DNA of 64,000 nucleotides from Leeuwenhoekiella sp. MAR_2009_132 (lineage in GTDB: Bacteria; Bacteroidota; Bacteroidia; Flavobacteriales; Flavobacteriaceae): assembly GCF_000687915.1 (NCBI RefSeq), contig NZ_JHZY01000004.1, positions 2,254,060-2,318,059 of the forward strand, written 5' to 3'. The translations under genes and the position numbers were made by a program. The notes beneath the pieces are model-generated. The model worked only from the letters and a program-made list of their open reading frames with translations, was not told the DNA's origin and searched no databases. This document shows, one piece after another, positions 36,122-40,988 of the stretch. Each line of letters starts with the position of its first letter. Positions within the stretch are counted from its first letter, which is position 1.

Positions 36122-37806
36122 ATGAAACACCTTTCCATAGCAAGTTTCTTGCTTTTATCTGCATTTAACATGTCTGCTCAAGAAGTAACCGAAGTAGGTA
36201 TAGACCAGCAAATTGATCAGGCATTTGCACCCATATCAGATTTTTTCTTCAATATCATTTTCTTCAATGTTTTTGGGATTCCTTTTGTACTTATTCTTTT
36301 AGTATTTAGTGCAGTATTCTTTACATTATATTTTGGTTTTCCAAATTTCAGATACTTTTGGAGAGCCATACAAACTGTACGTGGTAAGTATGAAGATATT
36401 GAAAATCACGGGGCTAAATTACTCTATGGTGAAGATGGTATAGCAAACGGGGTTGACTTAAATAAAGTTAATCTTGAGGAGCATATAGAAAATCTGGACG
36501 GCGATCTAGCTATAGACGGTGATATCGTAGATACTATTCGCGACGAATCTTCCGCTGGTGAAGTAAGTCATTTTCAGGCTTTAGCAACTGCGGTCTCAGG
36601 TACCGTAGGTAACGGTAATATTGCCGGTGTGGCATTAGCAATTGCTTTAGGTGGTCCCGGTGCAACTTTCTGGATGGTTGTTTGCGGTCTTCTGGGTATG
36701 TCAACAAAATTTGTTGAATGTACCTTAGGTGTTCAGTACAGAGATGTAGGTGAAGATGGTACCGTTTACGGTGGTCCAATGTACTATCTGACTAAAGGTT
36801 TGAAAGAAAAGGGCTTTGCAACTTTAGGAAAGATAGCAGCAGTAATATTTGCTATTTTTTGTGTAGGTGGTTCTTTTGGTGGGGTAACGCTGCTCAGAGC
36901 AATCAGGCAACAATAGTTTTAAAAGAACTTTTTAATTTAGAAAGTACAGGTGCAGGATTCACAATAGGTATTGTAATTGCAATTCTTGTAGGTGTTATAA
37001 TCATAGGAGGTATTAAGCGAATTGCTCAAGTTACTGAAAAGGTTGTGCCATTTATGGCCATTATGTACTTAGTAGCGTGTCTATATATTATTGGTTCAAA
37101 TTTTTCACTTTTAGATGACGCTATCGCCTTAATTATTCAGGAAGCTTTTAATCCTACCGCGATTGGAGTAGGTAGTGTTATTGGGGTTTTATTAGTGGGT
37201 TTTAAAAGGGCTGCATTTTCTAATGAAGCAGGAGCAGGTTCTGCTTCTATTGCTCACTCGGCCGTACGTACAAAATATTCTGCAAGTGAAGGTTTGGTAG
37301 CTTTATTAGAGCCATTTATTGATACAGTGATTATTTGCACAATGACTGCTTTAGTTATTATAATTTTTAATTTTGGAGGCTATTTTGAGTATGGGGGTGA
37401 TGGATCAGGGGCTGTTATTATTGATGGTCTTTCCTATGAAGGTGCAGGTATCACTTCAAAGGCATTTCATGAATATATTCCTTTTTCAAATATCTTTTTA
37501 ACTATTGCTGTAGTGTTATTTGCAGTTTCAACGATGATCTCATGGTCGTACTACGGCTTACAATCCTGGAAGTTTCTCTTCGGAAGAGGGAAAGTAGCAG
37601 ATATAGTCTATAAAATGTTATTCTTAAGCTTTATTGTAATAGGTGCTGCAGCAAATATGGGCTCTATTTGGCAATTTTCAGATGCTATGATTTTTGCAAT
37701 GATTTTTCCGAATATGGTAGGTTTATTCTTTTTATTCCCGGTTGTTAAAAAGCAACTCAACCGTTATTTAGCCGCTATTAAATTAAAAAAGGAAGCCATT
37801 AGTTAG
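36122..37806 (+). pseudogene. Alanine/sodium symporter (AGCS family), interrupted by a frameshift
   Basis: Two overlapping frames together encode one AGCS symporter of about 561 residues. The first frame (36122-36916) gives a signal-like N-terminus (ending FNMSAQ), a membrane helix, an acidic insert and the family block HFQALATAVSGTVGNGNIAG; it runs to SFGG and then breaks. The second frame resumes with GNAAQSNQATIVLK and continues to the usual end. The break is at a G4 run (36881-36884); adding one G restores the GGSFGGGNAAQ sequence, matching GASFGGGNMFQ in the neighbouring paralogue. It is either a sequencing undercall or a real -1 mutation. Function if intact: Na+-coupled uptake of alanine or glycine. 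Confidence 0.85.
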
Positions 37807-37830
37807 AAAAAATAGATTGAAGTATCTGTA

Positions 37831-37870
37831 AAAACACCCTCTTTAATTAATTTTAAAGAGGGTGTTTTTT
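37831..37870 (+). terminator. Intrinsic terminator
   Basis: AAAACACCCTCTTTAA pairs with its complement (37831-37846 with 37853-37868), followed by a T-run. It separates the two symporter genes. Confidence 0.92.
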
Positions 37871-38007: not shown

Positions 38008-40104
38008 ATGAACTTAATAAAAGCTATGAAAGAAAAATTATTTTTTTTAGTCTTCGTATTGCCTGTTATGGTATTTGCGCAGGATCTAAAAGTAACAGCA
38101 GAAATCCTTAACCCTACTTCAAAAATTAATGATGGTGTTGCTAAAATAGTAGTTTCTGGAGGCCAGTCGCCTTATAGTTATAAGTGGAGTGATCAAAGTA
38201 CATCGCTTACTTCAAACACTGCAGAATCTCTTACCGAAGGTGTTACCCATCAAGTAATGGTGACTGATGCTGCAGGAACTTCTATTACAAAGGAATTTAA
38301 AATAGAAGCAGAGTCTATAACCGAAATTTTTAATGGTACGATGACTCCTGCTGTGGCAGCTATGGGCTCTGTTTTATTTTGGGACCCTTTTGCAGCTTTA
38401 AATTTGTATGATCCTGTAATTTATGCAGATTTAAAAATGGTGTCTATACCGGGATGGACTGCAGATACTGAAGATATTTTCACGTTAGAAAGATGGCTTG
38501 TCGAAGACGGTGCAAAAGTTAAAAAAGGTCAGGAAATTGCCATAATTTCAGAAAGCAACGGTACTGAAATTAAAATTATCGCCGATGCAAATGGTGAAAT
38601 TAAACACTTAGAAGAAGAAGGCGGGATCATATATAATCCCAATAATCAAAAGCATTTAATTGAAACTAATGCAGATGTTTTTGCAGAAATAATATATGAT
38701 GATCCGGTACCATTAGTTTATGCTAATGGTGATAAACAAACAAATAGTATCCCATTTATAGTGGTGTGGCTAATTTTTGGAGCTGCATTTTTTACTGTGC
38801 GTATGGGCTTTATCAACTTTAGAGGCTTCAAACATAGTTTAGAATTAGCAAAAGGAAAGTACGACGACCCTAATGCTCCAGGTAGTATTACACACTTTCA
38901 AGCATTGGCAACTGCAGTATCAGCTACCGTAGGTTTAGGAAATATAGCAGGTGTGGCAGTAGCAGTATCATTAGGTGGTGCAGGTGCTACGTTCTGGATG
39001 ATTGTTGCAGGTTTACTAGGGATGTCTTCAAAATTTGTGGAATGTACTTTAGGGGTAAAATACCGTGATATTTTACCTGATGGTCGTGTCTTTGGAGGGC
39101 CTATGAATTATTTACGTTACGGTCTCGAAAAACGCAATATGGGCGGTTTTGGAAAAGTATTGGCGACAGCATTTGCCGTATTAGCGATTGGGGCTTCTTT
39201 TGGAGGTGGAAATATGTTTCAGGCAAACCAGTCTTTTGAAATATTAAGTGGTCAATTTCCAGGATTAGAAGGAAACGGATTTTGGTTTGGAGTTATAGTA
39301 GCTGTGCTTGTAGGTATCGTTATTATAGGAGGTATAAATAGTATCGCTAAGGTTACGGGAAAAATTGTACCGTTTATGGCAGGTATTTATGTTTTAGGAG
39401 CTCTTACGGTTATTTTTATAAACATTGAAAATATTGGACCGGCATTTACCGCAATTATTGATGGTGCATTTAGTCCAAGTGCTTTAAAAGGTGGTATACT
39501 GGGAGTTTTAATTGTAGGATTTCAACGAGCTGCATTTTCTAATGAGGCAGGTGTGGGTTCTGCAGCTATAGCACATAGTGTGGCAAAGACAAACCATCCT
39601 CCTTCAGAAGGTTTTGTTGCACTTTTAGAGCCTTTTATTGATACAGTTGTGGTGTGTACATTAACAGCACTAGTTCTAATATTTACAGGTATGCATGAGG
39701 TGACAGGTGTTGCAGGTGCAGATCTAACTTCAGATGCATTTGGTAGTGTGATATCGTGGTTTCCATATGTTCTTGCTGCGGCTGTATTTTTATTTGCATT
39801 CTCTACGATGATTTCCTGGTCGTATTATGGGATGCGTGCATGGACTTATCTTTTTGGTAAAAGCAAAAAGATGGAATTATTATATAAAGTATTATTTTTA
39901 TTCTTCGTAGTTGTAGGAGCTTCTGTAAGTTTAGGTGCAGTGCTCGACTTCTCTGATATGATGATATTAGCTATGTCTTTTCCTAATATTATAGGATTGT
40001 ACATACTTAGTGGAGAGGTTAGAAGTGATTTACGGGAGTACTTCAGGAAATTAAAAGCAAACGAGTTGTTTAAAAAGCAACGTGTAGCTAAACAGAAAAG
40101 TTAA
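38008..40104 (+). CDS. AGCS symporter with N-terminal SprB-like and lipoyl-like domains
   Basis: The 698-residue product is far longer than the usual 450-550 of AGCS symporters. It has a signal peptide (residues 1-25, MVFAQ), a SprB/PKD-like repeat (about 38-100, SGGQSPYSYKWSDQS), and a biotinyl/lipoyl-like hammerhead (about 143-222, LERWLVEDGAKVKKGQEIAI then ADANGEIKHLEEEGG). The symporter follows (about 248-670, with HFQALATAVSATVGLGNIAG and the GGGNMFQANQ loop). The hammerhead has ESNG where a modified lysine would be expected, so it is probably not lipoylated. The N-terminus of AGCS proteins is periplasmic, so the extra domains should face the periplasm. It is followed after 17 bases by the HhH protein gene. 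Confidence 0.9.
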   Translation: MNLIKAMKEKLFFLVFVLPVMVFAQDLKVTAEILNPTSKINDGVAKIVVSGGQSPYSYKWSDQSTSLTSNTAESLTEGVTHQVMVTDAAGTSITKEFKIEAESITEIFNGTMTPAVAAMGSVLFWDPFAALNLYDPVIYADLKMVSIPGWTADTEDIFTLERWLVEDGAKVKKGQEIAIISESNGTEIKIIADANGEIKHLEEEGGIIYNPNNQKHLIETNADVFAEIIYDDPVPLVYANGDKQTNSIPFIVVWLIFGAAFFTVRMGFINFRGFKHSLELAKGKYDDPNAPGSITHFQALATAVSATVGLGNIAGVAVAVSLGGAGATFWMIVAGLLGMSSKFVECTLGVKYRDILPDGRVFGGPMNYLRYGLEKRNMGGFGKVLATAFAVLAIGASFGGGNMFQANQSFEILSGQFPGLEGNGFWFGVIVAVLVGIVIIGGINSIAKVTGKIVPFMAGIYVLGALTVIFINIENIGPAFTAIIDGAFSPSALKGGILGVLIVGFQRAAFSNEAGVGSAAIAHSVAKTNHPPSEGFVALLEPFIDTVVVCTLTALVLIFTGMHEVTGVAGADLTSDAFGSVISWFPYVLAAAVFLFAFSTMISWSYYGMRAWTYLFGKSKKMELLYKVLFLFFVVVGASVSLGAVLDFSDMMILAMSFPNIIGLYILSGEVRSDLREYFRKLKANELFKKQRVAKQKS

Positions 40105-40121
40105 TCGAATAGTAAATATTT

Positions 40122-40988
40122 ATGAAACTAAAATCCCACTTGATGCTTGATTCTAAAAAGCGCAGTGGGATTTTACTTTTAGTTATAATTCTTAGTGCCT
40201 GTTGGATTTTTTATTTTTGGACTATTCAAAAAGAAAATTCGTTAGAATCTATTGATGATATTGCAATTTATCAGGCGCGCATAGATTCTTTAAAAGAAAT
40301 AGAAACTTTAAAAAGCACACCAAAAATATATCCTTTCAATCCTAACTTCATAACAGATTACAAAGGATATACATTGGGATTGAGTACACAAGAACTCGAT
40401 AAACTTTTCAGTTTTCGTAAAGAAGGTAAGTGGATTAACTCTTCTGAAGATTTTCAAAAAGTTACTGGTGTTTCAGATTCTTTACTTGCGGCGATCTCTC
40501 CATATTTTAAATTTCCAGATTGGGTTAATAATCCCAAGAAGACAATTAAAAAAGAATCCTACAATGCGTTTAAATCGTTTAATGATCAGAAAGATTTAAA
40601 TAAAGCCACATTTGAAAACTTAATAAATTTGCCAGAAATGACTGAAGAGAGTGCAAGGCTTATTTTAGCATACAGAAAGAAAATAGGAGGTTTTATAGAA
40701 GACAATCAGTTATACGATATATATAATGTTAAGCGCAATCAAGTTATTGAAGTAAAAAAAGAATTCACAGTTAAATCGAAACCGGTTATTGTTTTGATAA
40801 ACGTCAACAAGGCTAATGCTTCAGACCTCGCAACGGTGCCTTTTTTGACATTTGATATAGCGCGATCAATTATAGACTACCGAATACTTAATGAGGGAAT
40901 TAAAAATCTTGATGAACTTCTTAAAATTGAAGGCATAACCCCTTACAAATTAGATCGAATTAAATTATATTTGTCAACCAGCCAGTAA
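40122..40988 (+). CDS. Helix-hairpin-helix (ComEA-like) membrane-anchored protein
   Basis: The 288-residue product has one N-terminal membrane helix (about 17-35), a linker and three helix-hairpin-helix units. Recognisable units are GVSDSLLAAISPYF, DLNKATFENLINLPEMTEES followed by ARLILAYRKKIGGF, and NVNKANASDLATVPFLTFDI followed by ARSIIDYR. In ComEA this motif binds double-stranded DNA during uptake, and similar proteins occur widely in Bacteroidetes. The domain should be extracytoplasmic. Location directly after the symporter suggests a shared transcript but not a shared function. Confidence 0.8.
   Translation: MKLKSHLMLDSKKRSGILLLVIILSACWIFYFWTIQKENSLESIDDIAIYQARIDSLKEIETLKSTPKIYPFNPNFITDYKGYTLGLSTQELDKLFSFRKEGKWINSSEDFQKVTGVSDSLLAAISPYFKFPDWVNNPKKTIKKESYNAFKSFNDQKDLNKATFENLINLPEMTEESARLILAYRKKIGGFIEDNQLYDIYNVKRNQVIEVKKEFTVKSKPVIVLINVNKANASDLATVPFLTFDIARSIIDYRILNEGIKNLDELLKIEGITPYKLDRIKLYLSTSQ

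Follow-up and report, generated by a model that had tools for sequence, protein, structure and literature searches.

A SprB-type domain and a nested, lysine-less lipoyl-like hammerhead define a conserved subfamily of AGCS symporters

The window, a stretch of 64,000 nucleotides from Leeuwenhoekiella sp. MAR_2009_132, contains on its forward strand an open reading frame (38008-40104) that encodes an AGCS-family symporter of 698 amino acids. Translation probably starts at 38026, as the second methionine is the start in most aligned homologs. The parts of the gene product and the gene that follows it are:

38008..40104, + strand: AGCS-family symporter gene, 698 aa; homology favours the start at 38026
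38026..38079, + strand: predicted signal peptide, ending at A24, without a lipobox cysteine (sequence; model helix 2-23)
38080..38307, + strand: SprB-type beta domain, residues ~25-100 (PF13573 E 2.4e-5, under the cut-off; model strands 28-98)
38308..38385, + strand: AGCS N-terminal helix and its end, residues 101-126 (ITEIFNG...LFWD; model helix 104-123; kept in insertless relatives)
38386..38424, + strand: linker 1, residues 127-139 (PFAALNLYDPVIY; PFAA..YDPV), strongly conserved
38425..38694, + strand: lipoyl-like hammerhead insert, residues ~140-229, without a carrier lysine (models, family profile, loop spacing)
38548..38571, + strand: hairpin tip within the insert, the would-be carrier lysine site, residues 181-188 (entropy 2.70 bits)
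38695..38748, + strand: linker 2, residues 230-247 (YDDPVPLVYANGD...; ..NGD), N240 and G241 invariant (conservation, loop comparison)
38749..40101, + strand: AGCS membrane core with LeuT-type fold, first transmembrane helix (TM) 250-266 (TIGR00835; match to the 6cse AgcS structure)
40122..40988, + strand: helix-hairpin-helix (HHH) protein with one N-terminal hydrophobic segment, by eye (HHH_3 E 8.6e-27)

The membrane core scores well above the curated cut-offs (PF01235, 413.8 bits against 24; TIGR00835, 393.3 against 272.65), and its predicted structure matches 6cse_M with an E-value of 1.7e-21, a TM-score of 0.86 (target length) and 40% identity. AgcS (PDB 6cse/6csf; TIGR00835/PF01235), which we take to be a Methanococcus maripaludis protein, thus has a like membrane core (phmmer E 7e-92) but differs in what precedes it: residue 17 of 6cse aligns with the first TM here (249), so that a signal peptide, a SprB domain or an insert would have no space in front of it. 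The core would by homology carry out ordinary sodium-coupled uptake of alanine, glycine or similar amino acids.

The PF13573 match covers residues 41-64 and reaches 24.3 bits against a cut-off of 28, which one relative (L064) exceeds with 28.6 bits; among the best 120 of 409 homologs, a PF13573 label is already precomputed for most. Known SprB repeat proteins share with the symporter this repeat-type domain and the GG..PY.Y.W pattern. Here, however, a single copy sits on a transporter, whereas the other matches of the genome search are mostly open reading frames of 500 to several thousand residues, often with many copies each.

The initial annotation had proposed a signal peptide, a SprB-type domain and a biotinyl/lipoyl-like hammerhead without the modifiable lysine, an unusual architecture for an AGCS protein, and this domain content in front of an AGCS core is borne out. 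The structure models show a hammerhead fold. Although the window protein alone stays under the Pfam cut-off with its Biotin_lipoyl match at residues 161-204, Biotin_lipoyl is matched with E <= 0.01 in 48 of 51 family members (best 1.7e-9; 51 of the 54 extracted domains were used, three near-copies being left out). Against the PDB, a profile of these domains finds E2 lipoyl and biotin carrier domains with a best E-value of 1.2e-5, the top matches being E2 lipoyl domains. No other case of a lipoyl fold within a LeuT-fold carrier is known to us.

What had to be revised is the position of the hammerhead, which does not lie before the transporter but is nested between the AGCS N-terminal helix and the first TM, in the order N-terminal helix, linker 1, hammerhead, linker 2 and first TM. 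The spacing between the loop motif and the core motif is exactly 83 residues in all nine insertless relatives with the loop motif, and 173 residues in 63 of 84 distinct insert-bearing proteins (153-179 in the others). All nine insertless relatives keep the loop; eight have the SprB domain and no hammerhead, and one (L147) has neither. Because the loop is ~90 residues shorter in insertless relatives, the insert can be placed at approximately residues 140-229. These counts refer to 85 insert-bearing proteins, one of which is a truncated copy of the window gene, leaving 84 distinct ones. Architectures were labelled by simple patterns, with two proteins of unusual SprB motif counted as insert-bearing, and four of 150 AGCS proteins that do not have the core motif used for cutting were left out (L113, L114 and L119, all insert-bearing, and L178). 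The eight insertless SprB-AGCS proteins (L057, L058, L059, L124, L126, L127, L128 and L130) have the same SprB domain, linkers and core, and differ in having no hammerhead.

The same loop before the first TM holds another insert of ~90 residues in an AGCS paralog without a SprB domain (L179:536-2485, minus strand). This second insert has no Pfam match and is absent from a close relative (L185:534-2156, minus strand). The loop may be a repeated insertion site.

The symporter is also distinct from periplasmic adaptor (membrane fusion) proteins, in which a lipoyl domain occurs together with a long alpha-hairpin and other adaptor domains. The HlyD-type adaptor lipoyl domain (PDB 5c21) has such a hairpin, whereas the models show none in residues 129-248; here, moreover, the AGCS core follows the hammerhead, so that the domain is an integral part of the transporter. 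E2 lipoyl and biotin carrier domains (PF00364) have the hammerhead fold and sequence similarity in common with the insert but possess an attachment lysine, whereas the insert does not, is probably exported and is nested in a transporter.

Depending on the alignment used, the carrier-lysine position in the window protein is occupied by N184 or G185. Among 109 relatives, lysine is found at 184 in 13 and at 185 in two proteins, and in the wider set of 51 domains at 184 in 10 and at 185 in four. Might the hammerhead of some relatives then function as a lipoyl or biotin carrier, for instance in periplasmic redox reactions or carboxyl transfer? Those 13 proteins with K184, the 59 of 109 with any lysine within 181-188, the five of 109 with a carrier-like [DET]K[AG] motif and the fact that the nearest relatives of the domain are lipoyl carriers speak for it. 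We nevertheless consider it highly improbable, given that the window protein has N184/G185, that no lysine is conserved, and that the domain lies behind a signal peptide whereas lipoyl and biotin are attached in the cytoplasm. We reject carrier function as a conserved property, since there is no conserved lysine; the hairpin tip, moreover, varies more than any other segment measured, with a mean entropy of 2.70 bits compared to 1.98 for the whole insert, 1.48 for the SprB domain and 0.54 for the core. Within the insert, W163, V171, A178 and G196 are conserved. The variability of the lysine hairpin points away from a carrier, so that the remaining roles are a structural one or docking.

Counting the genome of the window, at least 29 of the 199 genomes sampled from its family have full-length strong matches to residues 25-248. 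These 29 genomes span nearly as many genera, and five of them have two copies. Three further family genomes have a partial match to the SprB part only and are insertless on reading. In a sample of the phylum, at least eight of 395 genomes have full-length strong matches, every one of them in the window's family (strong match, E < 1e-50; counted among the matches listed, with at most 14 candidates per genome scored for the family and at most seven for the phylum). Among 79 named loci, which stem from the best 80 of 306 confirmed stretches and are hence a ranked selection and not a rate, 56 cover the SprB domain and the insert (L069-L123, L125), six match over the SprB part without the insert region (L124, L126-L130, with L129 lying at a contig end) and 17 match partially. 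Loci L069-L130 belong mainly to Flavobacteriaceae (52 of 62; NCBI ranks, by title), and the insert-bearing loci include Marivirga, Brumimicrobium and a Flexibacter metagenome-assembled genome (MAG). The nearest named relative among the best 80 of 306 is Leeuwenhoekiella aequorea, with 84% over the N-terminal part. Within the window's genus, six of 12 other species searched have a strong insert match; as half of the congeneric species searched have none, the module is dispensable. One locus (L092) is from a MAG titled Algicola sp., a genus that ranks under Pseudoalteromonadaceae, and has flavobacterial gene order around the symporter gene, so that the label may be a misnomer.

Selection on the individual parts was compared in 24 disjoint close pairs, none of which includes the truncated copy of the window gene; for each segment, pairs whose dS was saturated or small were not counted. 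The insert has a pooled dN/dS of 0.10 (16 pairs counted), the SprB domain one of 0.081 (19 pairs), linker 2 one of 0.04 (13 pairs) and the core one of 0.016 (20 pairs); in single pairs, the insert ranges from 0.022 to 0.386. The insert is under purifying selection yet evolves faster than the core. Breadth and selection together decide on the suspicion, prompted by SprB and Biotin_lipoyl Pfam scores below the cut-offs in the single protein, that the domain is no more than neutral baggage or an artefact of assembly or gene fusion. The same architecture recurs in 56 of the 79 best-ranking named loci and in at least 29 of 199 family genomes, and the pooled dN/dS of 0.10 argues against neutral baggage. 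Such an origin is scarcely credible, and an assembly or fusion artefact is ruled out by the breadth of the family and the dN/dS. The AGCS subfamily with a SprB-type domain and a nested lysine-less hammerhead is a real, conserved design, found in many flavobacteria of the sea.

The initial annotation had also raised the possibility that this AGCS subfamily has been known for long and its role described. The domain combination is indeed already present in databases in the form of automatic labels; as for a described role, a literature search with most subscription journals outside its scope found no paper on AGCS proteins with SprB- or lipoyl-type domains, which is weak evidence.

Trees were computed from the core only, taking 78 and 49 of 146 aligned proteins that were hand-picked for spread, the truncated copy of the window gene being in neither. 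In the first, 49 of 50 insert-bearing proteins form one clade (SH-aLRT 95), and in the second 29 of 30 (bootstrap 95, SH-aLRT 93), with insertless SprB-AGCS proteins branching just outside the insert-bearing clade. The exception is L125, from the Flexibacter MAG, in which the insert is present and which is placed outside the clade. A single clade of all insert-bearing proteins is rejected (AU p 0.0002), and a single clade of SprB-bearing proteins with or without insert is weakly rejected (AU p 0.031). Most proteins suggest one insertion event, which L125 and the rejected clade leave unproven; L125 may owe its placement to an exchanged N-terminal part, to a second insertion or to several losses. 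With this one conflicting protein, tree and synteny point to an insertion into an older SprB-AGCS gene at an ancient locus. A broken insert copy in another family of the order (L210), beside HHH-like and acyl-CoA dehydrogenase-like open reading frames identified by eye, suggests that the insertion may be older than Flavobacteriaceae. Insert-bearing copies broken into separate reading frames were seen at L065:2996-5080 and L210:2570-4622, both on the minus strand.

In a search of 31 genomes, the further matches to the insert profile are mostly open reading frames of ~390-600 amino acids, with a few exceeding 1000. The matched frame that we examined, from the genome of the window, is an E2 protein with lipoyl, E3-binding and catalytic domains, and shares 41% identity over 46 amino acids. 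An E2-type lipoyl domain is thus, judging by similarity, the likely source of the insert.

Two insert-bearing symporters of different type were observed near each other in several genomes (loci L093, L094, L097, L098, L102 and L105; L060 and L061). The second-type copies form a clade of their own (18 proteins, including one in Brumimicrobium, Crocinitomicaceae) and mostly stand elsewhere, away from the HHH locus (e.g. L116-L118, L120-L123).

The old locus has the order AGCS-HHH-acyl-CoA dehydrogenase-Xer-HPF-tuf. To tabulate neighbours, five genes on each side were clustered in 51 of the 62 loci L069-L130 and in the window, and the families were named in the window; 11 loci were left out, among them L113, L114, L119 and L129 (contig ends early). 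Across these 52 focal loci, HHH genes are found in 39, acyl-CoA dehydrogenase genes in 38, HPF and DUF2851 genes in 33 each and TrkA-type potassium channel genes in 25, while a Xer recombinase gene is near 40 (in two cases on the other strand and in unrelated surroundings). In 35 loci the HHH gene is the next gene downstream of the symporter gene and shares its strand, with a median distance of 14; in the window the same count gives 18 (17 bases between). The two genes are probably co-transcribed.

Four of the five insertless loci with usable flanks also adjoin an HHH gene, two of them in opposite orientation, and the insertless relatives adjoining an HHH gene include Bacteroidales and Chlorobiota MAGs. 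The HHH protein is therefore no insert-specific partner, and among the five clustered genes on each side none was found that is. Judging by the shared flanks, the genes look like orthologs that occupy one old locus, and their neighbours offer no explanation for the insert.

A signal-peptide-like start is predicted by a crude rule for all 84 distinct insert-bearing proteins, for all eight SprB-only proteins and for 15 of the 53 other AGCS proteins, in agreement with the signal peptide first read from the window sequence. Because of this signal peptide the head is most likely periplasmic, and SprB domain and hammerhead would both lie on that side. The residues near the first TM (267-295) include four basic and three acidic ones, a charge difference that is small and adds little. 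As several related AGCS proteins without a SprB domain share such starts, the exported N-terminus may predate the head.

What would such a head do? A lipoyl-type carrier fold would have been borrowed and its carrier function then lost, and the head surface would now be diverging lineage by lineage while the fold residues are kept. SprB domain and hammerhead would together form a periplasmic head that carries nothing. This head may serve as a scaffold that, less certainly, would most likely tie the transporter to a periplasmic or envelope partner. Our preferred, though tentative, reading is hence a conserved AGCS subfamily in which the SprB domain and the lysine-less hammerhead make up a periplasmic scaffold, most likely for docking an envelope partner. 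As the insert is poorly conserved in sequence, one shared partner is not suggested.

Docking is slightly favoured over a purely structural or protective role, in which the head would steady the N-terminal helix and the first TM or shield the outer face with no specific partner involved. This role, which we hold to be rather unlikely but worth serious consideration, would account for the kept fold (W163, V171, A178, G196) under a divergent surface (2.70 bits at the hairpin tip), for insertless relatives standing beside the same neighbours and for a loop that tolerates additions, as with the different insert of ~90 amino acids in L179. On the other hand, a dN/dS of 0.10 for the insert and its presence in at least 29 of 199 genomes ask for more than tolerated filler, although stability might suffice.

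Capture of substrate, which the initial annotation had raised beside partner docking, or gating of the outer vestibule by the head is less likely than either and, in our estimate, improbable. In the models the head would be joined directly to the first TM helix on the presumed periplasmic side. That helix, however, is an additional one on the N-terminal side of the GxGN helix (here taken to be LeuT TM1), the conserved insert residues look fold-related, and the hairpin tip is variable. We also know of no lipoyl fold that binds free amino acids.

The docking reading can be extended to a more specific proposal, which is speculative and which we regard as doubtful. A metabolic lipoyl domain would have been captured, would have lost its lysine and been exported, and would now sit inside the outer loop of a symporter with LeuT fold; together with the SprB domain it could form there a docking head linking amino-acid uptake to a periplasmic partner, possibly the HHH protein. 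If true, bacteria would have in a single chain the counterpart of those transporters that depend on a large external subunit. Whatever the role of the head, a metabolic domain of cytoplasmic origin would here have been reused outside the cytoplasm. Insertless relatives with the same neighbours amount to natural deletion variants, which makes the role of the head cleanly testable.

Upstream of the symporter gene lies a second AGCS gene (36122-37806), which a frameshift near 36880 divides into two overlapping frames. Intact copies are found in the same place in Leeuwenhoekiella aequorea (L069:8025-9710) and at a same-genus locus (L212:849-2534); the frameshift may be a real lesion or a sequencing error. 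Between both AGCS genes, at 37830-37869, a hairpin with A and T tails was noted by eye and resembles a terminator, so that the symporter gene probably starts its own transcript. A promoter and terminator scan gave counts near chance, and this hairpin was not in its output. The upstream paralog (36122-36916) and its kin also carry an extra stretch, ENHGAKLLYGEDG...TIRDES (residues ~88-145), after the first TM, which by topology would be cytoplasmic.
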